Shown: in pieces, positions 15,328 to 38,813 of the stretch | Layout of the letters: each line of letters starts with the position of its first letter | Position numbering within the stretch: the first letter of the stretch is position 1 | From: Alphaproteobacteria bacterium | Lineage (GTDB): Bacteria > Pseudomonadota > Alphaproteobacteria > Micavibrionales > Micavibrionaceae | Length of the DNA stretch: 43,629 nucleotides | NCBI GenBank assembly: GCA_009995045.1 | Contig: JAACQG010000015.1 | Span: forward strand, 1-43,629 | Direction: 5' to 3' | The notes under the pieces: model-generated | Databases searched by the model: none | The model's input: the letters and a program-made list of their open reading frames with translations, nothing else | What the model was told of the DNA's origin: nothing | Made by a program: the position numbers and the translations under genes

Positions 15328-15338
15328 AAAGTAATATT

Positions 15339-19876: not shown

Positions 19877-19900
19877 CTGATCTCATTGAAAAAGCTGAAT

Positions 19901-19930: not shown

Positions 19931-20174
19931 TATGCGTATCACGTATTGATTATTGGAGTGCGAGTTTTATCTTACTTCTATGATACTTAATTAATGCGAA
20001 GTGGTATAAAACCCTTGATACAAAAGCCTTACAAAAAAGACTGGTTAATAGGGAACGATTCTATACCCAAATTTTCTGCCTCCGCATCAATAATGCTTAT
20101 GCACTATTGCGTGCTGTCCCAAACCGATACTCAAAATCTCTCGCCCATTCTTCTCAATAAAAAGGATTACAACA

Positions 20175-21278
20175 ATGCGCACCCTTAAACTGGCGTTATG
20201 CATGATCACCTTTGCAACAAGCATAAGCGCGGCGGCTCTTGCGCAAGACAAAGCAGAATCCGCAACACCGGTCGTTGTGACCGAAGTCAAACGCAGCTCT
20301 TTTGCTGACGAAGTTGAAGCCCTTGGCACACTTAAAGCCAATGAAAGTGTCGATTTAGCCTCTTCTGTGACAGAATTGGTGACAAAAATTTCCTTTGAAG
20401 ACAACCAAACCGTAAAACAAGGCGATATCCTTTTAGAAATGGACGCCGCAGAAGAATTAGCGGAGCTTGAAGAGCAAAAATCTTTCTTGAATGAGGCCGA
20501 GCGTCAAGTCAACCGCCTCTCTCCACTCGTATCCAAGGGAGCCGCATCCGCATCTGTTCTTGATGAAAGCAAACGCGTAGCCGCCGGCGCAAAGGCACGT
20601 GTCGACGCAACCCAAGCCCGCATCAATCAGCGTATCATTAAAGCCCCCTATGATGGAGTTCTAGGCCTACGCAATATTAGCGTCGGCGCACTTGCTCAAC
20701 CCGGATCTATGATCACCACGATTGATGACGTCACCGTAATGAAGCTGGATTTCTCGGTGCCGGAAGTTTTCTTATCGACCCTAAAGCCAGGCGTAATTAT
20801 TGAAGCAACAACACAGGCCTATCCTGAGGATGTATTCAAAGGCGAAATCGCAAATGTCGACAGCCGCATTGATCCAGTGACACGTTCAATTGAAGCCCGC
20901 GCAATCATTGATAACGCAGATGGCAAGCTAAAGCCCGGCCTATTAATGCATGTGGTACTACAAAAAAATCCACGAAAAGCCCTGATCATCCCCGAAGAAA
21001 CATTAACCGCCAATGGCGCTGATAACTATGTGCTTGTTGTCACCACAACGGACGGAAAAACGAGTGCAGAGCGCCGTAAGGTTGAGCTAGGCGCACGTCA
21101 ATTCGGCAGTGTAGAAATTTTATCAGGCCTCGAAGAAGGCGAAAAAATTGTGACCCACGGCACTATGCGTGTACGCCCCGGTGCACCGCTTAAAATCACC
21201 GCTGTTCAAAAAGATAACGAGCCGCTCAAAGAGTTATTAGAGCAAAACAATTCCGACCAGAAAAAGGCCGCGCAATAA
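20175..21278 (+). CDS. RND efflux periplasmic adaptor (second pump)
   Basis: A 367-residue membrane-fusion protein. It has a cleavable Sec signal peptide ending in ALAQ instead of a lipobox, unlike the first adaptor. The lipoyl start reads VEALGTLKANESVDLASSV and the second half reads KAPYDGVLGLRNISVGALAQPG. A hairpin of about 70 residues lies between them, shorter than in AcrA. The beta-barrel part carries the VDSRIDPVTRSIEARA motif common to MexH/VexE-like adaptors, followed by LKPGLLMHVVL. The C-terminus is a charged tail. Its stop overlaps the RND ATG by one base. The exported compounds are unknown. Confidence 0.94.
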   Translation: MRTLKLALCMITFATSISAAALAQDKAESATPVVVTEVKRSSFADEVEALGTLKANESVDLASSVTELVTKISFEDNQTVKQGDILLEMDAAEELAELEEQKSFLNEAERQVNRLSPLVSKGAASASVLDESKRVAAGAKARVDATQARINQRIIKAPYDGVLGLRNISVGALAQPGSMITTIDDVTVMKLDFSVPEVFLSTLKPGVIIEATTQAYPEDVFKGEIANVDSRIDPVTRSIEARAIIDNADGKLKPGLLMHVVLQKNPRKALIIPEETLTANGADNYVLVVTTTDGKTSAERRKVELGARQFGSVEILSGLEEGEKIVTHGTMRVRPGAPLKITAVQKDNEPLKELLEQNNSDQKKAAQ

Positions 21279-24200: not shown

Positions 24201-24385
24201 CGCTTATCTTATCCAGTGGTGCAGGTGCGGAAACACGCATATCAATCGGCATCGTTGTCCTTTTCGGTGTTTTGGCCGCTACCATTTTCACACTGTTTAT
24301 TGTGCCAGCCGCCTACAGCCTCATTGCGCGCAAAACCGGCTCCCCGAAAGCGGTGGCAGAGCGCCTTGAAAATGAAATGGAATAA
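21278..24385 (+). CDS. RND efflux pump, HAE1 family (second pump)
   Basis: A 1035-residue inner-membrane RND transporter. Visible are the start SVKRPVFASVISLLLIAFG, the REYPDIDPP motif and the proton-relay pair D401/D402 in LVVDDAIVMLENI. The partner lysine is in VGLAAKNGILIVEFANQ, and two large periplasmic loops are present. The sequence resembles the MexI/VexF-like branch more than AcrB. It is coupled to its adaptor by a one-base overlap, and no outer-membrane factor follows. Instead TamA starts 73 bases later on the same strand. The pump may borrow the OprM-type channel encoded upstream. Substrate is not predictable. Confidence 0.95.
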   Translation: MLISDISVKRPVFASVISLLLIAFGLVSFDRLSLREYPDIDPPIVTVEVEYPGAPANVVETRVTELIEERIAGVEGIEFVESSSQDGQSNVTIQFSINRDVNEAANDVRDRISGIQDNLPEEAEPPEVQKVDSNDDVIIWQNLSSDTMTVPELTDYAERYLVDQYSALDGVARIRVGGGLRYAMRVWLDRKALAARNLTANDVERAMRSENVELPAGSLQSDERIFKARVERNFQAPEDFAKLVLARGDDGYLVRLGDVARVEKGVEEDRIMFRGNEIPMVGIGVIKQSTANTIDVSDATKQLTDKLVKSLPEGMNISQSYDAAVFIEASIAEVYKTLFIAIGCVVFVIYIFLGSVRAMLIPAVTVPVSVIASFIVIYALGFSINLLTLLALVLAIGLVVDDAIVMLENIVRRIQEKGETPLVAAYKGARQVGFAVVATTLVLIAVFVPITFLEGDIGRLFTEFALTIAAAVGFSSLVALTLVPVMASKILKKADPENDKPNAFLRTIESVFGAMRRGYMTVLIKCLRYPLVMIAMFLALFGGAGWLYFNVTQEFTPQEDRGAFFVIVNAPEGSSYSYIEEYMDVIEERLMPYVDSGEFKRLLIRAPRGFGNIENFNSGFVIVILEDWASRRSAFTIMDEVRVKLSDLPGIRAFPVMRQGLGGGAQKPVQFVLGGSTYEELAEWRDIILQKIEENNPGFEGLDSDYKETRPQIDFTVDYDRAADLGVSISEIGETLQTLMGGRNVTTFMDNGEEYDVVIEGGRSTQTSFSDIKSIYVRSERTGELIPLSNLVKITEYGAAETLSRYNRIRAITLEANLKEGYALGDALTHLENLVRENLPEEAVIDYKGQSRDFITSGNSIIFVFMLGLAVVFLVLAAQFESYIHPLVIMLTVPLATGGGLFGLYVMGGTLNIYSQIGLIMLVGLAAKNGILIVEFANQLRDEGVRFSRALVQASEVRFRPILMTGLTTIAGTIPLILSSGAGAETRISIGIVVLFGVLAATIFTLFIVPAAYSLIARKTGSPKAVAERLENEME

Positions 24386-24458: not shown

Positions 24459-26243
24459 ATGCTTATACGCCGCGGCTTTTTCTTACGATCCACTATGTTG
24501 TTCGCCAGCATCATAGCCCTTAGCGCATGTCTCGACGACGCGCTTCTCGGTCAGAGCGTAGATTACACAATCCAAGGAGTAAGCGACGACAGCGATGTAA
24601 AAGAATATCTCGATACAATCATCACCGATCGTACCGTTGAAGCCATCGCCTATGACGCTGGCACGGCCAGTTTCGAGCGTGCAGAAACCGCAAGAGAACA
24701 ATCAATCGAAGCGGACCTCCTCAAAGCTTTAAAAGCCAAAGGATTTTATGATGCCCGCGTTCAATTTGAAGACAATCAATCACAAGCCTTAACGGGCATC
24801 TATACGATAGATACAGGAGAAATCTTCACGATATCCGATGTAACAATCGAGCCTGAAAATATGGCGCAATATTTCAACAATGATAGCGTCAGCGCAAACC
24901 AGCCGCTTAAAGCCTTACCGATTTTAAACGCGCAAGCTAAGCTTTATGAGAATGTTCAAAAAGATAAATGCTACTTTTCCATCAATGTAGATCATGAAGT
25001 GATTTTGAACAAAAACACAAAAACCGCTGCGCTAAAATATATCGTGGATGTAGGCGCGCCCGCCACTTTTGGCAAAACAACATTCCAAGGACAAGAAAGC
25101 GTCAAAGACAGCTATCTAAAAAACCTGATGCCATGGAAAGAAGGCGCATGTTTTCGGCGTGAAAAAATCATAAGCCTGAGGAATGCACTCCTCCAAACCG
25201 GATTATTCGTCCGCGCGGACAGCACCTTACCCGAAGCACCCGATGAAAACGGAAATGTCGATATAACCATTACCCTCAAAGAACGCGCCCACCGTAGCGT
25301 AAAAGCAGGCGTTAGCTATTACACCGACGAAGGGGCAGGGATCGTTTTAGGGTGGGAGCATCGCAATTTACGCGGCGGCGGAGAAAAGCTAAACGCAGAG
25401 CTTAATATGAGCCAAATCAACCAAAGCCTAGACGCGGATTTCTCGCAACCTTATTTCTTGCGTAAAGATCAAAGCCTTGAATTAAGCACTGCCCTGCGCA
25501 TGCAAGATACTGACGCGTTCGAAGAAACCGCCCTCGATTTAGGCGCAAGCATCAAACGCCAATTCACCAAAACCCTCTCTGGCAATACAGGTGTGAATTT
25601 AACATTCTCCGAAATCACGGATGAAGAAAGCACCGATACATTCGGTCTCGTGTCATTCCCAAACAGCATCCTATTTGATAATCGCGATGACCCGCTCGAC
25701 CCGCATAAAGGATGGCAGTTAAAGGCAAGCATAGAACCGTTCTATGACGTGCTAGGACAAAGCGATCCCTTCACCAAATTCGAAGCAGGCGGCAGAACTT
25801 ATATTGATCTCAGTGATAAGCCGGATATTGTTCTGGCGGTGCGCGCAAACGCAGGAAGCATTGTCGGCGGCAGTGTCGATGACATCCCTGCAACCGAACG
25901 TTTTTACGCAGGCGGTGGCGGTTCAATTCGCGGCTTCGGCTATCAAGAGGTTGGCCCCTTTAACGATGGCGACCCATCGGGCGGACGTTCGCTCGTAACA
26001 AGCGCGGCCGAGTTTCGTTGGAAATTCACCAAAACCCTTGGCGCCGTTGCCTTCGTCGACGCGGGAAGCGTATCAGAAAGTGTTTCCCCCGATATGAGCG
26101 ACCTATCAATCGGCGCAGGTTTAGGAATGCGCTATTACACAGATTTCGGCCCATTGAGGTTTGATGTGGCGATCCCGATCAACCAACGTGAGAATCTCGA
26201 TCAAAATTATCAATTCTACATTAGCATCGGTCAGGCGTTTTAA
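24459..26243 (+). CDS. tamA: TamA, Omp85-family translocation and assembly outer-membrane protein
   Basis: A 594-residue Omp85 protein that, with TamB, helps insert outer-membrane proteins or move lipids between membranes. After the signal peptide there are about three POTRA repeats (residues 35-270; for example GIYTIDTGEIFTISDV and VGAPATFGKTTFQG). A 16-strand barrel follows, with the lid-lock loop motif GGGGSIRGFGYQEVGP and a C-terminal phenylalanine. The signal peptide ends in LSAC, a lipobox-like motif with C24, which would make it a lipoprotein; I do not know this as a usual TamA trait. The TamB gene follows after 11 bases. The start is the first ATG; no clear ribosome-binding site is visible. 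Confidence 0.92.
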   Translation: MLIRRGFFLRSTMLFASIIALSACLDDALLGQSVDYTIQGVSDDSDVKEYLDTIITDRTVEAIAYDAGTASFERAETAREQSIEADLLKALKAKGFYDARVQFEDNQSQALTGIYTIDTGEIFTISDVTIEPENMAQYFNNDSVSANQPLKALPILNAQAKLYENVQKDKCYFSINVDHEVILNKNTKTAALKYIVDVGAPATFGKTTFQGQESVKDSYLKNLMPWKEGACFRREKIISLRNALLQTGLFVRADSTLPEAPDENGNVDITITLKERAHRSVKAGVSYYTDEGAGIVLGWEHRNLRGGGEKLNAELNMSQINQSLDADFSQPYFLRKDQSLELSTALRMQDTDAFEETALDLGASIKRQFTKTLSGNTGVNLTFSEITDEESTDTFGLVSFPNSILFDNRDDPLDPHKGWQLKASIEPFYDVLGQSDPFTKFEAGGRTYIDLSDKPDIVLAVRANAGSIVGGSVDDIPATERFYAGGGGSIRGFGYQEVGPFNDGDPSGGRSLVTSAAEFRWKFTKTLGAVAFVDAGSVSESVSPDMSDLSIGAGLGMRYYTDFGPLRFDVAIPINQRENLDQNYQFYISIGQAF

Positions 26244-26254
26244 AGGCAGGAGGT

Positions 26255-29200
26255 ATGAAAGCAATGATAAAATCAATACTCATAAGCCTCGGCACAGTGT
26301 TCGAACGCTTTTCAAAGCTCATCATATGGAGCCTATCGATCATTTTCGCGCTGTTTTTAATGGTCGAACTCGCCTTTCTTGGGGGCGTTGTGTGGCTCAA
26401 TAGCCAAGACGGAAAAGACTGGACAAAAACACAAATCATGGCCGCAACTGAAGCATCAGGGTATAACATTGATTACCAAAAATTATCATACCACACCCCG
26501 CAAAGCATCCGCCTCATCGGCCTTGAGATATCAGACGAACAAGGAATGATCGCACAAGCCGATGAGATTACACTCCATCCCGATGTGATAGGCGTGATCG
26601 GCATGCGTCGCCTTGGCCTGTCGTTAGGAATAAAAACCTTAACCCTCCACCGCTTACCAGAAAGCAAAACCAAGGAAGAGGATAAAGAGCCAACCACCTT
26701 ATCGCCGTTTTCATTGCCCGATATCTATTTCAAATCCCTCGCGATAAACAGCTTCGATATCGAAACACTCAACATCAATGAAAAAATATTCGGAACGGCG
26801 CTCACTCTCTCGCCAAGCCTCAACGCAAAGCTTAATCTAAGTAAAATTGCGCAATTAAACGCTGCCCTCAATATAACTCAAGCCTCCTCCCCGCTCCCCG
26901 CATGGCTGCCTGAAAACGTAAAAATAGACGCAAATTTTGACCCGCAATCTCTACTGCTCACCCTGAACAAGGCCAACGCAGATAATGCTAATTTGGATGC
27001 GAATATTATGGGGGATATCAATTTGGGAGAAGACAGAAGCGTTGATATCACTGGCAGCGCGCATGTCAAAGAGTTATCAGCATTCGCAAGTGGCATAAAC
27101 GGCAATGCGCAGATCAAGGCATCATTATCCGGTCCCTTCGACACCTTAAAAATAGATGCATCTGGCGGCGCGAGCGGGGCATTCTTATCCGAGAGAGGTT
27201 TAGGTGATGTCGAGTTCACGATCATTGACGATAACATCGCCGCATCCCCGCTAGGCCAGGCATCCCTGAATACAACCTATAAAGAAAAACCGATTAAAAT
27301 AAGCACATTGTTTGATAAGAAAAAAGATACGATCCGTATCAAAAATATAAATGCTACCGCACCCGATATAGCATTAAACGGCAATGTAATGATCAATACG
27401 AAAACAAGCATCGCGGATGGCCTAATAACAGTAAAGGCATCAAATCTATCCCCCTATAGCGACCTGATCGGCACCAATATCGCAGGCAGTATCAACGCCG
27501 ATATAACATTGTCAGATCAAGAAAACACACAAAGCGCGGCGATAAAAGCCTCCATTAACAATGCAGCCTATGACACCATAACCCTAAAAACCGCCGATCT
27601 AACGGCCACCATCAAAGACATCAAAACGCCATGGCCAAGCGCAATGACGCTAAAGGCAAACGGTCTGCGCCCCACGTCAGATATCATTATGACATCAGTG
27701 GACGCGACCATCACACAAAAAGAAAACGATGTTTATGCCCTCGCGCTCAACATGAATGGTAACGCGCTTCAGGATTTCAAGGCCAATGGCGGTGCGACAA
27801 TAAGCGGCATTCAAAAATCAGAGATCAGCGCGAATGACATTAATCTCAAATTTACAACCAAAGGCTCCCTTATAACTTTAAACGGAATGGCCAACACGCA
27901 AGAATTGGATGTGACACTGAAATCAAATGCATTCAATCTCGCAAACTTACCCATCCCTCTGCCTGAACAATTTACAAATCTATCCATGAATGCGGATGCA
28001 AAAATCTCGGGGGCAATGAACGCACCACAAATCATGGGTAATTTCGATTTAACCCCCATCGCCATCACAAAAAATGCCGATATAACCCTCTCTGCGAAGG
28101 CTAACTATAATAATGGTGAGGCGAGTTTAAATGTGACGGGTGTCGGTGACGCTGTTGAAACAATGCGTGCATCCGCCGCCATCCCGTTAAAATTATCGCT
28201 TAACCCCTTCATATTTGAAATGCCGCAATCAACACCGCTCAGCGGTAAAGCCGATATCAATGCATCGGCAAAAACACTATCTGCGATCTTACTGCCCGTG
28301 GGGCAGAAAATGAGCGGTGCTATCTCCGCCCAGGCCACAATCGGCGGGACAGTTGGCGCGCCCGACATCACCGCAGATGTCTTGATGGAAAACGGTACAT
28401 ACACAATGGATGAATACGGCATCGCCCTGTCAGATATAAATATGACAGCAGGCGCGGACGAATATATGCTCACCGTTAAATCGCTCACCGCCATTGATGG
28501 CAAAGGCGGTACGTTAGACGCAAGTGGACAGGTCCACTACACCAATCCAGAAAACACAAAAATAGATATGAACGTGAAGGATTTCTTACTCCTCGACAGT
28601 GACCTCGCTAAGGGCTCATTATCCGCGTCACTCGACCTTGAGGGTCGTGCGAAAGGATACGCAGTGTCTGGTGATATCGACCTCGGCGAATTTAACATCA
28701 ACATCCCCGAACGCTTCCAAAGCACAATCCCGGAGCTGAATATCGTTGAAAAAAATAATAGCGCTGGACAAACCGAGAGCCTTAAAAGCATAACGCTCGA
28801 TATGAAAATAAACGCCAAAGACCGCATATTCGTACGCGGATGGGGGCTAGATGCAGAATTTGGCGGAAAGCTGGATGTGGATGGCACGCTGGATGATCCG
28901 AAAATCAACGGCGAATTCAGCTCTAAACGCGGACGTTACGAAGAATTTGGCCGCCGCTTTACCCTTGATCGCGCGCTGTTACGCTTCTTGGGAAGCGTCC
29001 CGCCATCACCATATCTGGACATTGTCGCCACAACTGACGCGGATGACATTAAAGCATCAGTGAACCTAACAGGCGAAGTTCAAAACCCAGAGATTAAGCT
29101 GACATCCGTGCCGTCACTGCCCCAAGATGAAATCATGTCACAAATTCTCTTTGGACAAAACTTGACCAAAATCTCACCCTTTCAAGCCATTCAACTCAAA

Positions 29201-29497
29201 CAAACACTGGATCGCTTTACCGGAAAAGGTGGTGGCGGACTCGACCCATTGGGCACTTTACGCAATATTACTGGGCTGGATGATATTCGCATCGACACCA
29301 ATGATGAAGGCGAAGCAACCGCAGGTGTTGGAAAATATCTGAGCGAGGATGTTTATCTTGAATTGGAAAAAGGCGCAGGCGAACAATCAGGCACAGCAAA
29401 AATTCAGGTCGAGCTTACCCCTAATATCAACCTGGAAAGTGAAGTTGGCCAAGACGCGCAAGCCGGGGCAGGGGTGATGTGGAAATGGGATTATTAA
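26255..29497 (+). CDS. tamB: TamB, inner-membrane-anchored translocation and assembly protein
   Basis: A 1080-residue protein of the TamB/AsmA-like group. One N-terminal membrane helix (about residues 22-48) precedes a very long periplasmic beta-rich region, seen as many short alternating strands, that forms a groove spanning the periplasm. The C-terminal DUF490 domain is clear: GRRFTLDRALLRFLGSVPPSPYLD, then DEIMSQILFGQNLTKISPFQAIQL and the KYLSEDVYLELEKG stretch, ending in MWKWDY. It is somewhat shorter than the E. coli protein of about 1259 residues. An AGGAGG ribosome-binding site lies in the gap after tamA. It functions with TamA at the outer membrane. Confidence 0.94.
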   Translation: MKAMIKSILISLGTVFERFSKLIIWSLSIIFALFLMVELAFLGGVVWLNSQDGKDWTKTQIMAATEASGYNIDYQKLSYHTPQSIRLIGLEISDEQGMIAQADEITLHPDVIGVIGMRRLGLSLGIKTLTLHRLPESKTKEEDKEPTTLSPFSLPDIYFKSLAINSFDIETLNINEKIFGTALTLSPSLNAKLNLSKIAQLNAALNITQASSPLPAWLPENVKIDANFDPQSLLLTLNKANADNANLDANIMGDINLGEDRSVDITGSAHVKELSAFASGINGNAQIKASLSGPFDTLKIDASGGASGAFLSERGLGDVEFTIIDDNIAASPLGQASLNTTYKEKPIKISTLFDKKKDTIRIKNINATAPDIALNGNVMINTKTSIADGLITVKASNLSPYSDLIGTNIAGSINADITLSDQENTQSAAIKASINNAAYDTITLKTADLTATIKDIKTPWPSAMTLKANGLRPTSDIIMTSVDATITQKENDVYALALNMNGNALQDFKANGGATISGIQKSEISANDINLKFTTKGSLITLNGMANTQELDVTLKSNAFNLANLPIPLPEQFTNLSMNADAKISGAMNAPQIMGNFDLTPIAITKNADITLSAKANYNNGEASLNVTGVGDAVETMRASAAIPLKLSLNPFIFEMPQSTPLSGKADINASAKTLSAILLPVGQKMSGAISAQATIGGTVGAPDITADVLMENGTYTMDEYGIALSDINMTAGADEYMLTVKSLTAIDGKGGTLDASGQVHYTNPENTKIDMNVKDFLLLDSDLAKGSLSASLDLEGRAKGYAVSGDIDLGEFNINIPERFQSTIPELNIVEKNNSAGQTESLKSITLDMKINAKDRIFVRGWGLDAEFGGKLDVDGTLDDPKINGEFSSKRGRYEEFGRRFTLDRALLRFLGSVPPSPYLDIVATTDADDIKASVNLTGEVQNPEIKLTSVPSLPQDEIMSQILFGQNLTKISPFQAIQLKQTLDRFTGKGGGGLDPLGTLRNITGLDDIRIDTNDEGEATAGVGKYLSEDVYLELEKGAGEQSGTAKIQVELTPNINLESEVGQDAQAGAGVMWKWDY

Positions 29498-29501
29498 TGT
29501 G

Positions 29502-30767
29502 ATGAAAGATTACGAGCAATTATTAAAAGACAGCTTTAAAGCGGTATATGAAAGCGTCCATCCCGATATCTGCCTAAAACCCTTCATCCCAAAGCCCCAA
29601 GAGGGTCAAAAGATAATCGTAATAGGCGCGGGCAAAGCATCCGCCGCCATGGCCTGCGCATTTGAAAGAGATTATGAAGGACAATGCGAAGGCATTGTGG
29701 TCACGCGATATGGACATAGCGCCCCCACCAAAAACATCAAAATCTTAGAAGCCTCTCACCCCGTCCCCGATGAAGCCGGCGCATCGGCTGTTGAGGCGAT
29801 TATAAACTGCCTGAAAACGGCATCGCCCGAAGACATCATCATCTGTCTCATCTCAGGCGGTGGCTCTTCACTCTTAACTGCGCCCATAGACGGCATCCCA
29901 TTCAAAGCGCTTCAGGATCTTAATAAAATGCTCTTGTCATGCGGCGCACCCATCCAAGACATGAACGTCGTACGCAAACACGTCAACAAAGCGTTAGGTG
30001 GAGGATTGGCAAAATACGCAGGCAACAATAAGCTGATCACACTCGCCATTTCCGATGTCACAGGGGATGATCCCGCCATCATCGCATCCGGCGCAACCGT
30101 CGCTGATCCTTCCACCCTGAATGACGCAAAATCCATCATAAAGCGTTACGCCATTAAACCCGCCCCATCAATTCTCGCCGCATTAGAAAACCCAGCCAAC
30201 GAAACCCCAAAACCAAACGATCCGATTTTTAAAAACCATGAATACCACCTCATCGCCACACCAAACCACGCCTTAAAAACCGCCCAAAACTTCTGGCAAG
30301 AACAAGGCTTTCACACGCATATCCTTAACGCTGAAATGCAAGGCGATACAAATCAATGCGCCCATGAGCATGTTGATTTTATAAAGAAAATTTATAACGG
30401 CGAGACAAATATTAAACTGCCATGCGCGCTTTTGTCAGGCGGTGAAACAACCGTGCACATCACCGGAAACGGCGCGGGCGGGCCCAATACACAATTCATG
30501 CTCCAATCCGCCATGCTGTTAGAACAAGACCCCAAAATATACGCTATGGCCTGCGACACCGATGGCATAGACGGCAGCGTAGATAACGCTGGTGCGCTGA
30601 TCACGCCAGGCACATTAAAACATGCCAAAGAAAATGGCTTAAACCCAGCCGAATATTTATCGAACAACGACTCCTATCATTTTTTCCAACAGATAAATGC
30701 ACTTGTTAAAACGGGGCCAACCTTCACGAATGTAAATGACTACCGCGTTTTCCTGCTATTGCCATGA
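29502..30767 (+). CDS. glycerate 2-kinase (MOFRL family)
   Basis: About 421 residues. The enzyme phosphorylates D-glycerate to 2-phosphoglycerate with ATP, returning it to glycolysis. The N-terminal DUF4147 domain has VIGAGKASAAMA and the SGGGSSLL loop, and the C-terminal MOFRL domain has LSGGETTVHITGNGAGGPN and DTDGIDGSVDNAGA. Both signatures are intact. I take the ATG at 29502 over the GTG at 29499. It follows tamB by four bases, so it may be cotranscribed, but function ties it to the next gene. The glucosylglycerate phosphorylase downstream would release glycerate, the substrate of this kinase. Confidence 0.93.
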   Translation: MKDYEQLLKDSFKAVYESVHPDICLKPFIPKPQEGQKIIVIGAGKASAAMACAFERDYEGQCEGIVVTRYGHSAPTKNIKILEASHPVPDEAGASAVEAIINCLKTASPEDIIICLISGGGSSLLTAPIDGIPFKALQDLNKMLLSCGAPIQDMNVVRKHVNKALGGGLAKYAGNNKLITLAISDVTGDDPAIIASGATVADPSTLNDAKSIIKRYAIKPAPSILAALENPANETPKPNDPIFKNHEYHLIATPNHALKTAQNFWQEQGFHTHILNAEMQGDTNQCAHEHVDFIKKIYNGETNIKLPCALLSGGETTVHITGNGAGGPNTQFMLQSAMLLEQDPKIYAMACDTDGIDGSVDNAGALITPGTLKHAKENGLNPAEYLSNNDSYHFFQQINALVKTGPTFTNVNDYRVFLLLP

Positions 30768-30833
30768 CCTACATGAAGGATAAGTAAAATAAGCGCTGAT
30801 GACTTTTCGGGGCAATGTGGTAAATACTATGTG

Positions 30834-32579
30834 ATGGCTATTGAAACTCTAAAACAAAAACTCATTAATCACATCAAACGCATTTACCCTGAACGCAATC
30901 ACGAGCGCTTGGCCGATGAGATTATCTCAACTTTCTGGCCAACATCAGGCGGAAAGAAAGCAAAAGAATCACATCTCCCTGGAAAAGGCGCATGGTCTGA
31001 GCAGACAACACTTTTAATCACATATGGCGATACGATCAAAAAAGCGGGGCAAGAGCCGCTAAAAACCCTGCACACTTTCCTCAAAGAAGAATTAGACGGC
31101 GCAATCAGCGGCGTCCACATCCTCCCCTTTTTCCCATACAGCTCCGATGACGGGTTTTCCGTGATGGATTACCACGCCGTGCGCGAGGATCTAGGCGACT
31201 GGGAAGATATCAAAGCGATCGGCGCTGATTTCCGCTTAATGTCGGATATCGTCATCAACCACGCATCCGCCAAAGGCAATTGGTTTGACGGCTTTTTAAA
31301 AGGCGAGGAGCCGTATAAAGACTATTTCTTTACGGCAAATACCGATGATGATATCTCCCGCGTGATAAGGCCGCGCCCATCCCCCTTATTGACCGAATAT
31401 CAAACCGCCGACGGCCCAAAACATCTCTGGTGTACCTTCGGCCCCGATCAGGTTGATTTGGATTTCACCAACCCTGATGTCTTGCTTGCCTTTATTGACA
31501 TTATGCGCGTGTATCTAAATAACAATATTCGTATCTTTCGCCTTGATGCGGTCGCCTTCCTCTGGAAGGAAATCGGCTCTGAATGTATTCATCTGCCGCA
31601 AACACACGAAATCATACGCCTGTTCCGCACGCTCATTGATTATTACGAGGAAGATGTCCTCATCATTACCGAAACAAATGTCCCCAACCATGAAAACCTG
31701 ACCTATTTCGGCAATCAAAACGAAGCGCATCTCATTTATAACTTTTCCCTGCCGCCGCTTTTGATACAGGCGCTTTTGACGGGCAATGAATATTATTTGA
31801 AAAAATGGCTGATGGAATTACCGCCAACCCAACAAGGCTGTGCATATCTGAACTTTGTCGCGGGGCATGACGGCATTGGTCTTCGTCCTGCCGCGGGTAT
31901 TTTAATGGATGAAGATTTCGAGGAAATGATCGAAACCGTGCGCAATTTCGGCGGAGAAATCAGCATGCGCACCGGCGAAGACGGCACAGAAAAACCCTAT
32001 GAGATGAATATATCGCTCTATGACGCACTTAAAGGTACGATCAACGGCGAAGATAATTTCCAAAGCGAGCGTTTCATCGCATCTCAAACCATCATGCTAG
32101 GGTTAGAGGGGGTTCCCGCTTTTTATATCCATTCCCTCTTGGCAACCCCAAATGACCATGAAAAATACAAACGAACAGGCAGCAAGCGCGGTATAAACCG
32201 CCATCAATATAATTACGATGATCTATACGCGGCGCTGAACGATCCTAAATCTGAAAAATCATACATCTTCAATGAAATCAAACGCATCATCACTATACGC
32301 ACACAACAACCCGCATTTCATCCCAACGCAATCCAATTCACACTCCAACTCCCTGAGGGCTTCTTTGGGTTCTGGCGTCAAAGCGAGGATCGCAAACAAC
32401 ATTTGTTTTGCATCACAAACATCACAAACAAAGACCGCGAAATCGCGCTGCATCATTTGAACCTGTATTCAGGGGTGAAATGGAAAGATTTGCTGACCGA
32501 TCAGGTGTTTGAAAACCGCGAAAACGACCTCATCATCGCGCCCTATCAAAGCATGTGGATCACAAATATAGCCAAATAA
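30834..32579 (+). CDS. GH13 subfamily 18 phosphorylase, probably glucosylglycerate phosphorylase
   Basis: A 581-residue glycoside phosphorylase of the sucrose phosphorylase subfamily of GH13. It would split 2-O-alpha-glucosylglycerate with phosphate to glucose 1-phosphate and glycerate. GH13 motifs are visible: LMSDIVINHAS, the nucleophile D238 in FRLDAVAFLW, the acid/base E280 in IITETNVPN, and NFVAGHDGIGLRP. The start HILPFFPYSSDDGFSVMDY is characteristic of the subfamily. Relatives include sucrose, sucrose 6-phosphate and glucosylglycerate phosphorylases. The kinase for glycerate upstream and the glucosylglycerate synthesis genes facing it decide for glucosylglycerate. A GTG at 30831 is an alternative start; neither has a strong ribosome-binding site. 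The gene ends 18 bases from the converging synthase gene. Confidence 0.88.
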   Translation: MAIETLKQKLINHIKRIYPERNHERLADEIISTFWPTSGGKKAKESHLPGKGAWSEQTTLLITYGDTIKKAGQEPLKTLHTFLKEELDGAISGVHILPFFPYSSDDGFSVMDYHAVREDLGDWEDIKAIGADFRLMSDIVINHASAKGNWFDGFLKGEEPYKDYFFTANTDDDISRVIRPRPSPLLTEYQTADGPKHLWCTFGPDQVDLDFTNPDVLLAFIDIMRVYLNNNIRIFRLDAVAFLWKEIGSECIHLPQTHEIIRLFRTLIDYYEEDVLIITETNVPNHENLTYFGNQNEAHLIYNFSLPPLLIQALLTGNEYYLKKWLMELPPTQQGCAYLNFVAGHDGIGLRPAAGILMDEDFEEMIETVRNFGGEISMRTGEDGTEKPYEMNISLYDALKGTINGEDNFQSERFIASQTIMLGLEGVPAFYIHSLLATPNDHEKYKRTGSKRGINRHQYNYDDLYAALNDPKSEKSYIFNEIKRIITIRTQQPAFHPNAIQFTLQLPEGFFGFWRQSEDRKQHLFCITNITNKDREIALHHLNLYSGVKWKDLLTDQVFENRENDLIIAPYQSMWITNIAK

Positions 32580-32599
32580 AGCGCCGATCCTCCGCGCTT
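32579..32599. terminator. possible bidirectional hairpin between converging genes
   Basis: AAGCGC and GCGCTT pair around nine bases and overlap the stop codons of both converging genes. There is no T run, so termination would be weak. Confidence 0.28.
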
Positions 32600-33821
32600 A
32601 TTCTTCATTGTCCAATCTTACCGCTTCCGCAATCTGCTCCATAATATCAGGGATAGCATATTTCACGCGGTTCCAACGCGGCACAAATGGCGCGTCGGTG
32701 GGGTGATTAAGAAAATCATGGCCTGCTTCGATAATATTGGCGGCAAATAATTCAACCGTTTTTTCTTCCAAATGCACATTATAAGACAGCCCATTAATGG
32801 TCGCGTCATGCTTATACATCTCGACCATATCCATCGCAGTGCGCAAATACGTGGCCTTGACTGAGCGTAAGCTTTCTTCGGAGATAATATGCCCATCCGT
32901 GGCCATCTTTCGAAAGATCGAGACAATGATATCAATGCTCATCTTCGATAATCCCTTGCTCGAATCCTCGCTAGAGACGTCTTGATGTTTATGATCATAA
33001 TTATCCGCCAATTCGACCTGACAGATCACATTGGTTGAATAATTCCGGCGAATTTCTGACAGCGTACCAATCTCCAAACCCCAATCATTGGGAATGCGAA
33101 TATCGGACATCGCATCCACATGCATCGCAAATTCCCCCGCAAGCGGATAACGAAACGCGGCTAAATACTCAAGATACGGATCATCGCCATAAACTTTGCG
33201 CATCGCCTTAATCAGCGGCGTAACAAGCATGCGCATCACGCGTCCATTCATTTTCCCTTCCGCAATGCGGGCATAATATCCCTTGGAAAAAATATAGCTG
33301 AAATTGGGATTGGCTACGGGGTAAAACAAACGCGCAACCATGCCGCGCTCATAGGTTAAAATGTCACAATCATGCAGGCCAACAACTTTGGTCTCTGGAC
33401 ATCCCGCCAAAACATAACCAAAGCAATACCACACATTGCGCCCTTTACCCGGCGCAAGCGGCGCCAAATCCTGCGCGGCCAATTGCTTATCAATCGCACG
33501 CAATCGCGGCCCGTCATTCCATAAAATTGTATGCTTTTGCGGCAATGTAGAAAAATAATTCTTCGCATATTGAAATTGCTCGCGATCCGCCTGATCCAAT
33601 CCAATGACAATATTATCAAGATAAGGAACATGGGAAAGCTCATCGACAATATGCTTAAGCGCATCTCCCTCAAGCTCCGAAAAGAGCGAAGGCAAAACAA
33701 GCGTCATAGGGCGCTTTTTTGAATATTTCACCAGTAATGTTTCTAATTCTTCAACCGGACGGTTGGTTAAATTGTGAAGCGTTGAAACAACGCCATTTTG
33801 ATGAAAATCAGCCATACGCAA
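32598..33821 (-). CDS. gpgS: glucosyl-3-phosphoglycerate synthase (GT81-like)
   Basis: A 407-residue GT-A glycosyltransferase. It would transfer glucose from an NDP-glucose to 3-phosphoglycerate, the first step of glucosylglycerate synthesis. The donor- and metal-binding DxD motif is D151-C-D153 in GLHDCDIL, preceded by PGKGRNVW. Later blocks match the synthase family: KGYYARIAEGKMNGRVMRM, the acceptor-site region AAFRYPLAGEFAMH and DWGLEIGTLSEI. The length fits. It follows the phosphatase gene by 19 bases on the same strand, forming the synthesis pair. A mannosyl version cannot be fully excluded, but the phosphorylase next door favours glucose. It converges on that phosphorylase gene. Confidence 0.87.
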   Translation of the reverse strand: MRMADFHQNGVVSTLHNLTNRPVEELETLLVKYSKKRPMTLVLPSLFSELEGDALKHIVDELSHVPYLDNIVIGLDQADREQFQYAKNYFSTLPQKHTILWNDGPRLRAIDKQLAAQDLAPLAPGKGRNVWYCFGYVLAGCPETKVVGLHDCDILTYERGMVARLFYPVANPNFSYIFSKGYYARIAEGKMNGRVMRMLVTPLIKAMRKVYGDDPYLEYLAAFRYPLAGEFAMHVDAMSDIRIPNDWGLEIGTLSEIRRNYSTNVICQVELADNYDHKHQDVSSEDSSKGLSKMSIDIIVSIFRKMATDGHIISEESLRSVKATYLRTAMDMVEMYKHDATINGLSYNVHLEEKTVELFAANIIEAGHDFLNHPTDAPFVPRWNRVKYAIPDIMEQIAEAVRLDNEE

Positions 33822-33840
33822 ATACCATAGTAAATTTTCC

Positions 33841-34629
33841 CTAAAAAGACAATCTCTCTAACAATGCAAGCATAGACAGGTTCCAACCCTCTGGTCCTGC
33901 TTTGGGCGCATCAATAATCTTTCCTCGCGCATCAGAGATGCTAAAATCATGGCCGCTGGCATTGGGAATTTTAATCCCGTAATCAACCGATGCCAACATA
34001 TCCGCATCATTGGGCCCATCACCAAGCGCCACGGTTATAAAATTCGTGTCAGGCTCCGCGTCTTTCCACTGAGTGATAAGCATATGAATAGCTTTATCTT
34101 TTCCGCCGCATGCGCTCATCAAGTGATAAAAACGCCCCCCCTGAACAATCATCAATCCTGCATCCTGAGCACGGCTTTCTAGGGCGCGAAATCCCGCCTG
34201 ATCGCCGCCCCATAAAAACGGTTCACTGCCCAATCGATCTTTGGCCAATACCGCTTGTTGTTCAGAAAGTCCCGTATGTTCAATAACATCCTCAACATGC
34301 ATATCGCCAAATCCAACAATATGCCTGCGCATTGCATCTGGAACGCTATCCAAAAATTGACGTATCTCGCCGTAATCCATACCCACTGCATTGTGGTCAT
34401 ACCCATCAAAAACCACAGTTCCATTTTCCGCAATGCGCGCCTGTCCAACAAAGGGCAAATTCAACGCATCAATTTCCGCCAGTGTTTTGCTCGTCGTTGC
34501 AATAACAGGAATATTAAGTGTTTTTAAACGCTCTAAAGCATGCAGAGCTGGGCTGTAATCATAGCTATCATGGTCAAGAAAACTGCCATCTAAATCAGTA
34601 AATACAACGATTTTGTCACGTTTGATCAT
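33841..34629 (-). CDS. glucosyl-3-phosphoglycerate phosphatase (HAD, mannosyl-3-phosphoglycerate phosphatase family)
   Basis: About 262 residues. A Cof-like HAD phosphatase that would remove phosphate from glucosyl-3-phosphoglycerate to give glucosylglycerate. HAD motif I is D12-L-D14 in VVFTDLDGSFLD, and motif II is in VIATTSKT. The motif with a conserved lysine is SACGGKDKAIHML, and motif IV is ALGDGPNDADML. The cap domain has the family's GFGDM and LWGGDQAGF. The enzyme family is named for the mannosyl substrate, but members act on the glucosyl form too, and the adjacent synthase decides. The ATG at 34629 starts directly before the first strand; a GTG at 34650 in frame is the alternative. 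Neither has a good ribosome-binding site. Confidence 0.87.
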   Translation of the reverse strand: MIKRDKIVVFTDLDGSFLDHDSYDYSPALHALERLKTLNIPVIATTSKTLAEIDALNLPFVGQARIAENGTVVFDGYDHNAVGMDYGEIRQFLDSVPDAMRRHIVGFGDMHVEDVIEHTGLSEQQAVLAKDRLGSEPFLWGGDQAGFRALESRAQDAGLMIVQGGRFYHLMSACGGKDKAIHMLITQWKDAEPDTNFITVALGDGPNDADMLASVDYGIKIPNASGHDFSISDARGKIIDAPKAGPEGWNLSMLALLERLSF

Positions 34630-34713
34630 ACTATTTTCATAGCATATCACATGCTACATGCCATCTTTTTACTGCAAAAATTGATAAATTTAAAAAACTT
34701 ACAAATGAACAAA

Positions 34714-34739
34714 GGAACTAAAAAACGTCGCTAATCGTA
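34714..34739 (+). promoter_or_regulatory. EcfG-type stress promoter of the Pmp3-family gene
   Basis: GGAAC at 34714-34718, 17 bases, then CGTA at 34736-34739, one base off the alphaproteobacterial general stress consensus GGAAC-N16/17-CGTT. It lies 50 bases before the ATG of the membrane peptide. Confidence 0.65.
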
Positions 34740-34788
34740 GGAGGGCACAAGACAACAATAAATAAAAAACAAGTAAAGGAGAATTTAA

Positions 34789-34980
34789 ATGCCACTAGCA
34801 AGAACAAATGACAGCCTACTCAGCGATGTAATCAAAATCATTTTAGCCGTAATACTTCCACCCCTTGGTGTATTCTTTGAAGTCGGTTTGACAAAACATT
34901 TCTGGATTAACATCATTTTGACAATTTTCGGTTTCGTGCCCGGTATCATTCATGCGGTTTACATCATCGCAACGCGTTAA
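34789..34980 (+). CDS. Pmp3/YqaE (UPF0057) family small membrane protein
   Basis: A 63-residue peptide with two membrane helices, matching the Pmp3/UPF0057 family that is induced by salt, cold or osmotic stress in many organisms and affects membrane potential. The family core is ILAVILPPLGVFFEVG for helix one and INIILTIFGFVPGIIHAVYII for helix two (residues 42-62). An AAGGAG site lies eight bases before the ATG, and an EcfG-type promoter lies upstream. It sits next to the glucosylglycerate genes, which fits osmotic stress control, although those genes lack such a promoter. Confidence 0.93.
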   Translation: MPLARTNDSLLSDVIKIILAVILPPLGVFFEVGLTKHFWINIILTIFGFVPGIIHAVYIIATR

Positions 34981-34994
34981 TGCATTGTAAAATA

Positions 34995-36092
34995 TCAACA
35001 ATCTTCAAATATAAAGATTTGAGATTGATCTAAGAAAATATCGTGAACATCGTGCCGTGTGTCAAGAAAAGCACCCGGCACGCGCGCATGTATGTGAATT
35101 GTATCATGATCTTTATGATCAATATCATGTGTGTCCATGTGAACGAGCGTGGAACGCCCTAAATATTTCCTTTCACTCACGCGCACATGAGCATGTTCAT
35201 ACTCTGGCTGATTATGATCAATATCGGGCGTGTGCGCCGATAATTTCAGCGCCTCTGGTCGGATAATAATATTCACATATGTGCCATCACTAAAATCAGG
35301 CGCAGGGATATTTCCAATCGACGTCCGAACGCAGCCCTGCACAACTTGCCCTTTTAACACATTCACATCCCCGAAAAACGAAGCAACAAAAGCATTCTTA
35401 GGATGGCTATAAACATCATGCGGTGTGCCAATTTGCTCAATTTTCCCATCATTCAAAATCGCAAGCCGATCCGCAAATTGCATCGCTTCTTCTGGATCAT
35501 GTGTCACCAAAACCGCGGCAACACCCGCTTTTCTAAGAATATGCATGACATCATCACGAATCTTTGAACGCCGCCCTGCATCTTGCGCCGCAAATGGTTC
35601 ATCCATCAAAATCAAATCAGGGGCAGCCGCCAAGGCACGCACAACCGCCAAACGTTGCTTTTGACCGCCGGATAATTCATGTGGCGCCGCGTCACCCTTA
35701 TCGCATAACCCCGCCAGCGTTAACATTTCATCAATGCGCGCTTGTTTGTCTTTACGCGGATAACGCCGTAGGGCATAAGCGATATTGCCACGGACGCTCA
35801 TATGGGGGAACAAGGCGAGGTCTTGAAAAACCATCCCAACCTTTGGCGCGGATGCGTGTCCATCAGGCGCGCTAATCATACCATGAGCAGGATCTTCCAG
35901 CCCCGCAATCAGCCGCAACAGCGTCGTCTTGCCACAGCCCGAAGGCCCAAGCAAACACAAAAACTCACCCTGATAGATATCAAGCGAAATATGCTTTAGC
36001 ACACCCAAAGCTTTTTTCTGCTTTTGCGCATAAGAAAAATTCACATCATCGATTTTAAGTAAAATCTCTTGTTCTGGTGCGTGAGGCGACAA
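34995..36092 (-). CDS. iron(III) ABC transporter ATP-binding protein (FbpC/FutC-like)
   Basis: A 365-residue ATPase that powers periplasmic iron(III) uptake. Walker A GPSGCGKTT is at 49-57. The signature LSGGQKQR, Walker B LILMDEPFAAQD and switch histidine in LVTHDPEEA follow. A TOBE-type regulatory domain begins near residue 240 (IIIRPEALKLS). The end is remarkable for about a dozen histidines with many aspartates in some 70 residues, including HMDTHDIDHKDHD. The start codon is TTG with an AAGGAA site upstream. It diverges from the binding-protein gene and could share its Fur-like control. The permease gene is on the same strand but separated by the oppositely oriented binding-protein gene. 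Confidence 0.9.
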   Translation of the reverse strand: MSPHAPEQEILLKIDDVNFSYAQKQKKALGVLKHISLDIYQGEFLCLLGPSGCGKTTLLRLIAGLEDPAHGMISAPDGHASAPKVGMVFQDLALFPHMSVRGNIAYALRRYPRKDKQARIDEMLTLAGLCDKGDAAPHELSGGQKQRLAVVRALAAAPDLILMDEPFAAQDAGRRSKIRDDVMHILRKAGVAAVLVTHDPEEAMQFADRLAILNDGKIEQIGTPHDVYSHPKNAFVASFFGDVNVLKGQVVQGCVRTSIGNIPAPDFSDGTYVNIIIRPEALKLSAHTPDIDHNQPEYEHAHVRVSERKYLGRSTLVHMDTHDIDHKDHDTIHIHARVPGAFLDTRHDVHDIFLDQSQIFIFEDC

Positions 36093-36106
36093 AATAAAAT
36101 TCCTTA

Positions 36107-36155
36107 TTGATCTCGGATATATATACAGATATAGAGCAGATAAGAATAATTCTCA
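36107..36155 (+). promoter_or_regulatory. promoter and Fur-like box of the iron-binding protein gene
   Basis: TTGATC at 36107-36112, 17 bases, TATAGA at 36130-36135 form a fair sigma-70 promoter. TAAGAATAATTCTCA at 36141-36155, at the expected transcription start, is an imperfect palindrome. Read on the other strand it matches 11 of the 14 defined positions of the Fur 7-1-7 motif TGATAAT-N-ATTATCA. It would block transcription when iron is plentiful. Confidence 0.55.
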
Positions 36156-36181
36156 ATCACAAACAAAAAAAGGCATCAATA

Positions 36182-37225
36182 ATGTTGAAAAATATCGCTT
36201 TAACGCTGACTTTGCTATCATCTTTTCTTATATCATACGCCGCAAGCGCGCAGGAAAAAGCAGCCAAAGATGAAAACATATTGCATATATATTCATCGCG
36301 CCATTACGACACCGATGAAGCCTTATACGATGATTTTACGGCGCAAACAGGGATCAACATCAAACGCGTAGACGGCAAAGGCGACGCGCTGATCGCCAGA
36401 TTAGAACAAGAAGGCGACCTAAGCCCCGCTGATCTTCTTATCACTGTGGATGCCGGCATGCTCTGGCGCGCTGAAGAAGCAGGATTATTCCAGCCAATCA
36501 ATTCTGAAATACTCAATGAAACAATCCCCGCCAATCTTCGCCACCCCGAGGGCCAATGGTTTGGCTTTTCGACTCGCGCCCGTGTGATAGCCTACAACAC
36601 CGAAAAAATCAGCGAAGGCGAAATCACATCATATCAAGATTTAGCAGACCCAAAATACAAAGGCCGCGTCTGCGTGCGCTCATCCAGCAACATCTACAAC
36701 CTCTCACTCCTATCAAGCATGATCGCACAAGACGGTGAGCAGGCAGCAACCAAATGGGCGCAAGGTGTATTGGATAACCTCGCCAGAAAACCCCAAGGCG
36801 GTGACACTGATCAAATCAAAGCAGTTGCCCGTGATATATGTGATATCGCGCTGGTAAACAGCTACTATCTCTTTCGCATGCAACGCTCCGATGCCGCTGA
36901 AGACAAGGAAATCGTCAAAAACATTGGCGTCGTATTCCCTGATCAAAACGGGAAAGGCACACATATAAACATCTCTGGCGCAGGCGTTGTAAAACATGCC
37001 AAAAATAAAGAAGCTGCTGTGAAATTCTTGGAATACCTCACATCAAAAACCGCGCAAGCCTATTTCGCTGACGGTAATAACGAATATCCGGTCGTCGACG
37101 GTGTCAAGGTCAATGAAACAGTAGAGGCCAATAAAGATTTCAAAGCGCAGAACATTAATGTGCGCGAATTTGGCGTAAATCAAAAACGTGCCAAAATGAT
37201 TTTCGACACAATTGGTTTCCAATAA
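36182..37225 (+). CDS. iron(III)-binding periplasmic protein (FbpA/FutA-like)
   Basis: A 347-residue solute-binding protein that captures ferric iron in the periplasm. The ATG at 36182 begins a good signal peptide ending in ASAQ; the frame extends upstream to 36107 but that part lies inside the promoter. Family motifs are strong: IYSSRHYDTDEALYDDF, PADLLITVDAGMLWRAEEAG, VRSSSNIYNLSL and THINISGAGVVKHAKNKEAA. Probable iron-ligating tyrosines are in SRHY and the paired YY of NSYYLFRM, as in FutA/FbpA. The ATPase gene diverges from it, and the permease gene converges on it with a single base between the stop codons. Confidence 0.94.
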   Translation: MLKNIALTLTLLSSFLISYAASAQEKAAKDENILHIYSSRHYDTDEALYDDFTAQTGINIKRVDGKGDALIARLEQEGDLSPADLLITVDAGMLWRAEEAGLFQPINSEILNETIPANLRHPEGQWFGFSTRARVIAYNTEKISEGEITSYQDLADPKYKGRVCVRSSSNIYNLSLLSSMIAQDGEQAATKWAQGVLDNLARKPQGGDTDQIKAVARDICDIALVNSYYLFRMQRSDAAEDKEIVKNIGVVFPDQNGKGTHINISGAGVVKHAKNKEAAVKFLEYLTSKTAQAYFADGNNEYPVVDGVKVNETVEANKDFKAQNINVREFGVNQKRAKMIFDTIGFQ

Positions 37226-37226
37226 A

Positions 37227-38813
37227 TCAAGACGACAAGCGTGTGTAACGTTGCAAAAGCGTAATCGGAATGCATCCGGCTAAAACAATGAACAAAGCCG
37301 GAAACGCCGCTTCCGATAACCGCTCATCAGAGGCAAAATTATACGTACGAATAGCCAGCGTATCAAAATCAAAGGGCCGTAATATAAGCGTGAGAGGCAA
37401 TTCTTTAATCACCTCCACGCTTATCAGCAGCCCCGCGCTAATCATTGCCGGAAAAAGCAGCGGCAATTTGATTTTCCACGCATCATAAAATGACCCATAT
37501 CCGCTCAAACGCCCTGCATCATCAATCGAGGGACTAATTTTCTCATATCCTGCATCCAACCCTTTGATTGATATATTCAAAAACCGAATGAGATAGCCAA
37601 TGATCAAAAACAAAAATGTGCCTGTAACCAATATCTCCATGCGTGAAAATATGATCGACATCAGCAACAACCCAAGCCCAAGAATAACCCCCGGCAGCGC
37701 ATAGCCAAACCCACAGATGCTCAATAAAAAGGCATGAAATGCACTATCATGTTTGCGCTTATACGTCGTAAGAACAAAGGACAATGTTATCGCCAATAAT
37801 GCCGCGATAAAACAAACCGCTAACGTGTTGTATAAATACGGCAATGTGGCAATGATCTGATCCAAAATGTTATCACTGCTTAATACCATGCGAAGCAATA
37901 AAAACATCGGAAATATAAACCCCAACATCACTGGAATAAAACACCAAATGCTTAACAGCACACTGCCGCGCTGCGTGGCTGAATGCGTAATTTTTGACAC
38001 CTCAAGGCTGTAAAATCGCATTTTTTTGCGTTGTTGTTTTTCAAACCAAACAAGGCAGAGAACAAACCCAAGCAATAAAATCGACAGCCGCGCCGCGGCC
38101 GTAATATCGCCATATCCCGCCCACGCGTCATAGACAACGGTGGAGAACACTTTAAGGCCGAAATAATCCATCGTTCCATAATCGGCGAGTATTTCCATGA
38201 TCACCAACATCAGACCGACAATGATAAACGGTCGCGACGCAGGCAATGCAATGTCAAAAAATCGTGAGAACCGACTAGCGCCAAGCATAGTGCCGCTTTC
38301 AATCTGACTGCGCGAACCGCTCAAAAACCCATTGCGCGCAAAGATATAAACATAGGGGTAGAGGCAGAATGTTAAAATAAAAGACGCGCCCCAAACCGAT
38401 CGAAAATCAGGCAATAAAAATTGCCCGTCAATACGCTCCAACCAAGCTGAAAAACCACCCGCCGCATCAAAAAAATTCGTGTAAAGATAAGCAAGGATAT
38501 AAGCGGGAAAAACAACGGGCATCATCAATAAAAACCCCAATACGCCTTTCCCGAAAAAATTATAATGCACATGGACCCACGCGCAACTAACGCCAAAAAC
38601 CAAAACGCCAACGCTGGTAAAGATAACGATAATCAGAGAATTGAGCAGAACGTCATCCAGTACATTGCGCACTAAAAACAGGAAAACCTCGCTATCGCCT
38701 GATGCACTCTCAACACCTAAGGCCATAAGGGGGAAAAGAATAAGTATAGCCGTAATGGTAAAAAAATATTTCAAACAAAAGATCCTATGAAAACAAAGCC
38801 ATGGCAAACCCAT
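37227..38813 (-). CDS. iron(III) ABC transporter permease (FbpB/FutB-like)
   Basis: A 528-residue inner-membrane permease with two fused halves of about six helices each, the plan of FbpB/FutB. The binding-protein-dependent motif occurs twice, recognisable around EAA-like loops in GTMLGASRFSRFFDIALPASRPFI and SPSIDDAGRLSGYGSFYDAWKIKLPLLFP (positions near 185 and 440). The first ATG lacks a ribosome-binding site. A TTG at about 38774, with AGGA upstream, is a possible true start just before the first helix. The gene lies on the opposite strand from its binding protein and ends one base from it, so the transporter is built from three separately transcribed units. Confidence 0.91.
   Translation of the reverse strand: MGLPWLCFHRIFCLKYFFTITAILILFPLMALGVESASGDSEVFLFLVRNVLDDVLLNSLIIVIFTSVGVLVFGVSCAWVHVHYNFFGKGVLGFLLMMPVVFPAYILAYLYTNFFDAAGGFSAWLERIDGQFLLPDFRSVWGASFILTFCLYPYVYIFARNGFLSGSRSQIESGTMLGASRFSRFFDIALPASRPFIIVGLMLVIMEILADYGTMDYFGLKVFSTVVYDAWAGYGDITAAARLSILLLGFVLCLVWFEKQQRKKMRFYSLEVSKITHSATQRGSVLLSIWCFIPVMLGFIFPMFLLLRMVLSSDNILDQIIATLPYLYNTLAVCFIAALLAITLSFVLTTYKRKHDSAFHAFLLSICGFGYALPGVILGLGLLLMSIIFSRMEILVTGTFLFLIIGYLIRFLNISIKGLDAGYEKISPSIDDAGRLSGYGSFYDAWKIKLPLLFPAMISAGLLISVEVIKELPLTLILRPFDFDTLAIRTYNFASDERLSEAAFPALFIVLAGCIPITLLQRYTRLSS

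Follow-up and report, generated by a model that had tools for sequence, protein, structure and literature searches.

A predicted glucosylglycerate cycle encoded by a convergent gene block in a Micavibrio-type alphaproteobacterium

Genes for making and breaking glucosylglycerate are known to cluster. Gene neighborhoods of glucosylglycerate phosphorylase (GGaP) have been described in Meiothermus silvanus, Spirochaeta thermophila, and E. coli (Franceus et al., via PMC7178133), and according to the same 2020 review, glycerate kinase, synthase, or phosphatase genes frequently accompany those for GGaP, an enzyme whose exact metabolic function is described there as lacking experimental confirmation. 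In Prochlorococcus NATL2A, synthesis and recycling genes are co-located in a single operon with a transporter gene adjacent (PMC11631117). Among alphaproteobacteria, Rhodoalgimonas zhirmunskyi (Roseobacteraceae) has a putative GGaP with PYELN and TETN motifs together with a GT81 enzyme (PMC10608839), and for SAR11 offshore genera the available text mentions glucosylglycerate synthesis only, which its authors tie to nitrogen limitation (PMC12636525). Here we examine a four-gene block at positions 29502-34629 of a 43,629-nt stretch of DNA (hereafter the window) from a Micavibrio-type genome assembled to 1.89 Mb in 32 contigs and 93.75% complete.

Like the Prochlorococcus operon, the window holds synthesis and recovery genes in one place, but its adjacent ABC transporter is of the ferric-iron type. 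It differs from the described GGaP neighborhoods in uniting all four genes, one half being encoded on each strand; around E. coli ycjM, no synthase, phosphatase, or glycerate kinase is found among the 19 features listed. In contrast to R. zhirmunskyi, the host is a Micavibrio-type genome, and our literature search found no publication joining glucosylglycerate with Micavibrio. The pairing of synthesis with phosphorolysis is not unusual and the biochemistry is ordinary; what is new is the Micavibrio-type host and the behavior of the block, namely its convergent clade, its occurrence on plasmids, and its unlike flanks.

The block consists of four complete, uninterrupted open reading frames, two on each strand, with the halves converging. 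On the plus strand, a class II glycerate kinase gene (DUF4147 and MOFRL, 421 aa, 29502..30767, ATG 29502, stop at 30767, with a GTG just upstream at 29499) is followed by a predicted 2-O-alpha-glucosylglycerate phosphorylase gene (GH13_18, GGaP clade, 581 aa, 30834..32579, ATG 30834). On the minus strand lie a putative glucosyl-3-phosphoglycerate phosphatase (HAD-IIB, MPGP family, 262 aa, 33841..34629) and a putative glucosyl-3-phosphoglycerate synthase (GT81-like, 405 aa, 32598..33815, start 33815, stop end 32598). A reading made from the letters of the DNA alone, here called the sequence-only reading, had proposed a glucosylglycerate module of four genes, two per strand, with 18 bases between the tail-to-tail stops; the module is intact and the count is exact (32580..32597). 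Chance can be excluded as an explanation of this arrangement because four other Micavibrio-type genomes carry these genes with identical order and orientation, and the phosphorylase-synthase-phosphatase core recurs in many other alphaproteobacteria.

We consider it very probable that the block encodes a complete intracellular glucosylglycerate cycle and that its genes travel together. In the synthesis half, the synthase would join nucleoside diphosphate glucose to 3-phosphoglycerate, and the phosphatase would then release glucosylglycerate. In the recovery half, the phosphorylase would convert glucosylglycerate and phosphate to glucose 1-phosphate and D-glycerate, and the kinase would feed the glycerate back to glycolysis as 2-phosphoglycerate. 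Under salt or nitrogen stress, a cell so equipped may store carbon in a solute that contains no nitrogen and regain it at low cost; the in vivo substrates and this physiological trigger are ones that we infer.

The assignment of the phosphorylase carries much of this proposal. Its Pfam match is Alpha-amylase (2.8e-25), and its best solved chain, 7qqi (1.5e-54), is named only "Aamy domain-containing protein." The possibility that it is instead a sucrose or glucosylglycerol phosphorylase, as are other members of GH13_18, draws on the next twelve solved chains, all of them phosphorylases by name (glucosylglycerol, sucrose, or sucrose 6F-phosphate), and on its best NCBIfam match, the sucrose phosphorylase model (208 bits, below the cut-off of 334). 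The enzyme is 37-40% identical to E. coli YcjM, which is listed as a characterized GGaP (PMC8950772). Furthermore, GGaP is distinguished from sucrose phosphorylase by a (T/S)ETN motif and a loop A glutamate (PMC7178133), with loop A written PYELN in R. zhirmunskyi (PMC10608839). The window enzyme carries both, as the TETN acid/base loop signature at residues 279-282 (31668..31679, plus strand) and as PYEMN at residues 388-392 (31995..32009, plus strand), where most other GH13_18 clades have glutamine. TETN and PYExN are invariant in all 23 aligned phosphorylases, YcjM among them, as are the catalytic residues in RLDA (Asp238), TETN (Glu280), and HDG (Asp346), whose roles were assigned by alignment to solved phosphorylases. 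Because TETN and the loop A glutamate are GGaP marks, we reject a sucrose phosphorylase identity, and with the kinase and the glucosylglycerate synthesis genes adjoining, any of the other GH13_18 specificities seems extremely improbable. The identification as GGaP (EC 2.4.1.352), with which the placement in the phosphorylase tree agrees, holds as far as sequence can carry it.

The donor sugar of the synthase is less sharply marked. The protein matches the GpgS_Meth model NF040724 over residues 3-404 (1.2e-106, 357 bits), has no Pfam match in the family search, and contains an HDCD motif (residues 148-151) that is invariant in 25 aligned rows. Its similarity to the solved GpgS structures 7pdo/7p5l is 5.2e-4 by single sequence and 3.1e-6 by profile (A1). 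One alternative is that this half makes mannosylglycerate, or both solutes, and that the phosphorylase half is an independent pair for glucoside utilization that became a neighbor by happenstance. The phosphatase family is named after mannosyl-3-phosphoglycerate, a profile search with the synthase extends to 3f1y, a chain whose name is mannosyl-3-phosphoglycerate synthase, and in comparisons of the predicted fold the mannosyl enzymes 3kia and 2zu8 come within 1 Z of GpgS, with 2zu8 covering more of the model than GpgS does. Against this, GpgS leads both fold comparisons, the best sequence model is of the glucosyl type over nearly the full length, and at E 0.001 the synthase, unlike the neighboring gene, does not match NF011072, the bifunctional mannosyl-3-phosphoglycerate synthase/phosphatase model. 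The wider genomic context points the same way: a phosphorylase lies beside or near the synthase in 10 of 12 synthase-bearing genomes of a class-wide sample, the two enzymes are fused in one locus (L053, below), and galU, for UDP-glucose formation, precedes both genes on a Qingshengfaniella plasmid. In addition, subsite -1 of GH13_18 enzymes binds a glucosyl group (PMC7178133). We therefore regard synthesis of mannosylglycerate beside an unrelated phosphorylase pair as very unlikely and favor a glucosyl-3-phosphoglycerate synthase, with a donor sugar that can only be called probable because the GpgS fold match is nearly tied with the mannosyl enzymes. Of the enzyme identities in the sequence-only reading, all four families thus stand as named, while nucleoside diphosphate glucose as donor is less secure than that reading had it.

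Profile searches place the remaining two enzymes above their family cut-offs. The phosphatase matches the mannosyl-3-phosphoglycerate phosphatase family TIGR01486 at 190.6 bits (cut-off 164.75) and also matches the solved chain 1xvi (7e-37). The kinase matches DUF4147 (7.5e-72, 242 bits, Pfam cut-off 23) and MOFRL (3.5e-38, 130.5 bits, cut-off 28.3), and its closest solved chain is 2b8n, "glycerate kinase, putative" (4.7e-76). Two scores weigh against the cycle as drawn. The synthase falls short of the 700-bit equivalog cut-off of GpgS_Meth, which weakens the name and not the likeness, and the kinase lies under the cut-offs of both NCBIfam glycerate 2-kinase models (NF041176, 226.6 of 550 bits; NF040791, 165 of 670 bits). 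Because both of these equivalog models are missed, 2-phosphoglycerate is the expected product of the kinase and not a settled one.

The sequence-only reading had singled out the pairing of synthesis and phosphorolysis with the kinase in an alphaproteobacterium as what deserved attention, but comparison with other genomes shows that pairing synthesis with phosphorolysis is not rare. In a draw of 385 genomes of the alphaproteobacterial class, the synthase is present in 12, and in ten of these (the window genome, G007, and eight others) a phosphorylase lies beside or near it; L120 and L122 have no phosphorylase within about 1.5 kb of synthase flank. Six of the ten loci are one-directional and four are convergent, although in one of the latter (L123) the gap measures 842 nt. 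With this frequency and the published precedent, rarity of the pairing is rejected.

What sets the locus apart is how the block behaves among its relatives, a point absent from the sequence-only reading. The nearest phosphorylases in the genome collection are those of Micavibrio sp. ARS33 (73%), Micavibrio sp. UBA6929 (69%), and two metagenome-assembled genomes (MAGs) titled Alphaproteobacteria bacterium (69%). Full-length phosphorylase and synthase occur in four of eight genomes of the genus, the four without them being listed as 92-100% complete. The synthase was found in none of the other relatives among 58 searched, where weaker GH13 matches reach 38%, 32%, and 28% in the best three. In all five Micavibrio-type blocks (the window, G004, G005, G007, and UBA6929) order and orientation are the same, and sampling of 5 to 30 kb on either side (for the phosphatase side of G005, only 0.3 kb) revealed no neighbor common to them. 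The only flank likenesses are general paralogs at different positions, namely histidine-kinase domains (up to 39%) and an RND pump shared at 36% by the window and G007.

G004 and G007 offer the closest comparison, as they are close sisters by RpoB (96%), RecA (94%), and BamA (91%). In this marker comparison, the RecA rows of G003 and G006 were left unused (wrong frames, matches of 16-71 residues), the window genome had no RecA or BamA rows, its own RecA giving a weak partial match only, and RpoB was lacking for G001 and G005. In the G004 stretch, the match to the G007 block spans positions 15040 to 20155, bounded by the end of the phosphatase on one side and the start of the kinase on the other, and goes no further. 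On the left of G004, 7.5 kb matches another G007 contig and stops 2.4 kb short of the block; the right flank was compared with G007:C5:50000-85000 and C7:1-38000 only, and an exact empty site in G007 was not obtained. Between these two blocks the kinase (69%) and phosphatase (63%) are more divergent than the phosphorylase (89%) and synthase (93%), a pattern for which recombination inside the block is not required, since the outer genes are more divergent in every other block comparison too. In these genomes the four genes thus keep a fixed order while their neighbors change; that the block itself was transferred directly is what we infer.

The window block is bordered by tamAB on one side and, on the other, by a pmp3-like gene and then the ferric-iron ABC transporter. 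This stretch seems variable in the genus, because in the other seven genus genomes tamB and the iron-binding protein have no match and tamA has BamA-grade matches only (26-29%), in a search whose first look may miss divergent copies. We reject contamination of the contig, which fits the genus: the RND gene that immediately precedes tamA shares 83-84% identity with a same-genus genome.

The convergent layout extends well beyond Micavibrio-type genomes. Among 27 loci found through the phosphorylase in the genome collection, 23 are convergent with the synthase and two are one-directional (L052 and L053); L054 and L055 show no synthase in the flanking DNA examined. Within the 23, the position of the MOFRL kinase varies: in the 4 Micavibrio-type loci it precedes the phosphorylase on the plus strand, in 14 sphingomonad loci the opposite strand encodes it, and in the other 5 it was not found within the examined flank. 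A synthase tree of 25 rows unites 17 convergent rows in a single group (96/96), and L123, used as outgroup, is the only convergent row outside it. In a phosphorylase tree of 30 rows (7 of them partial, L123 absent), 19 convergent rows group at 82/86 with forks drawn open, and the program warned of long branches; two plasmid loci are absent from both trees. The convergent layout thus appears to be one clade, with L123 as the one exception, across several alphaproteobacterial orders, and the phosphorylase/synthase core may have spread among these orders as a block. In both trees, two rows titled Kordiimonas are nested among the sphingomonads, a position compatible with either transfer between orders or mistitled assemblies.

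Plasmids also carry these genes. The synthase occurs in 11 of 72,556 plasmid records, four of which were examined. On a Leisingera methylohalidivorans plasmid typed as conjugative (L125, NC_023146.1), a phosphatase-synthase-phosphorylase block with a 10-nt stop gap is flanked by conjugation genes (mobF and a type IV secretion DNA-binding protein) on one side and a urease cluster on the other. The Qingshengfaniella plasmid has the convergent core behind galU, with stops overlapping by 8 nt. A Psychrobacter plasmid has phosphatase and synthase, with no phosphorylase among the features listed for the 3 kb that follow the synthase, and on a Pseudoalteromonas plasmid all genes run in one direction.

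Several one-directional loci show other gene arrangements. In Verrucomicrobiota bacterium JB023 (L053:5732-8710, plus strand), a 992-residue frame comprises a synthase (3-404) and a glucosylglycerate phosphorylase (from about 424), placing the making and the breaking enzyme on one chain, although a stop lost through assembly error is possible. Further fusions of this kind were sought in nine one-directional synthase/phosphorylase loci, among which only L053 reads through, and no report of a synthase-phosphorylase fusion was recognizable from the titles and abstract openings returned by our literature search. In L052 (3888-5620, plus strand), the phosphatase gene shares 4 nt with a gene of the D-glycerate 3-kinase type (6ckg, 2.7e-23), and on a plasmid of Pseudoalteromonas sp. 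CuT4-3 (L128:5263-7008, plus strand), a kinase of the same type (45% identity) is fused to the phosphatase. This kinase replaces the MOFRL kinase in both loci and would yield 3-phosphoglycerate. A full-length synthase relative (55% identity) is also present on a viral-collection contig (L124, IMGVR_UViG_3300037574_000405), which may be viral or host DNA.

How the two halves are controlled is more speculative. Each turn of an uncontrolled cycle would consume roughly two to three equivalents of nucleotide triphosphate, so some control is expected. The sequence-only reading held that the layout suits opposite regulation, for which the window gives little footing: the kinase ATG lies 4 nt past the stop of tamB on the same strand (tamA and tamB, 24459-29497), and promoter-like sites number 13, against 12.4 (standard deviation 3.6) in shuffles. 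Given this 4-nt spacing, transcription of the recovery half in the window genome likely comes from tamAB or from a promoter inside tamB. Elsewhere the gene upstream of the kinase is on the same strand (G005, UBA6929) or divergent (G004, G007). For the synthesis half, the probable promoter site is the 159-bp divergent intergenic region (34630..34788), where the promoter scan is no better than shuffles. Terminator-like sites number 9, against 7.4 in shuffles. The 18-nt gap with its edges could form a short GC-rich hairpin that is not conserved in relatives, and a conserved terminator between the halves is rejected because folding energies of the gap region vary widely among loci (window, -8.7/-12.7; others, 0.0 to -17.9 kcal/mol, leaving aside the 842-nt stretch of L123). 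Opposite regulation of the halves is best treated as a hypothesis.

Alternatively, the tail-to-tail layout may itself be a regulatory device, in which converging transcripts interfere so that one half is expressed at a time. Across 26 convergent loci (the window, the 23 above, L114, and L123), the stops overlap by 4 nt in 16 and are 6 to 35 nt apart in 9, L123 being the exception at 842 nt; with 35 nt or less between the stops in 25 of the 26, and overlap in 16, a terminator would have no space between them there. However, an ancestral layout may simply persist in the clade, the same enzymes occur one-directionally in other loci, and the breaking half of the window follows closely on tamAB. 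Short converging gaps and 4-nt stop overlaps are, moreover, common in compact genomes. We consider interference unlikely, and find it quite unlikely that the block is a portable, self-contained cassette spreading between alphaproteobacterial orders with mutually antisense ends as its own switch against futile cycling.

Beyond the conserved block, the pmp3/yqaE-type gene for a 63-residue membrane proteolipid (34789..34980, plus strand; PF01679, 4.5e-23) is divergent from the phosphatase gene. Pmp3/YqaE-type proteins are linked to salt tolerance; the G005 relative lies on another contig than the block of that genome. The ferric-iron ABC transporter (34995-38813) comprises an ATPase (minus strand), a FutA/FbpA-type binding protein (plus strand) in between, and a permease with two transport domains (minus strand). 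We rejected it as a glucosylglycerate importer because the binding protein, which matches 6g7n (1.7e-112) and the iron transport protein 2pt1 (2.1e-105), belongs to the ferric-iron type. On the other side, two RND efflux sets stand in a row (14143-24385), the adaptor and pump of the second being 70% and 83% identical to those of G001.

Our findings describe modestly interesting genome evolution with ordinary biochemistry. The Micavibrio-type lineage is best known for predators of other bacteria. For one marine Micavibrionales MAG, a photoheterotrophic way of life has been proposed as well (PMC9933672). With the block described here, Micavibrio-type bacteria would join the organisms with a full glucosylglycerate cycle, and genes for synthesis and recovery are seen to move together with a conserved convergent layout. 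Because the convergent cassette also occurs in cultured Parasphingorhabdus flavimaris (L041) and Leisingera methylohalidivorans (L125), the role of GGaP in these bacteria becomes testable.

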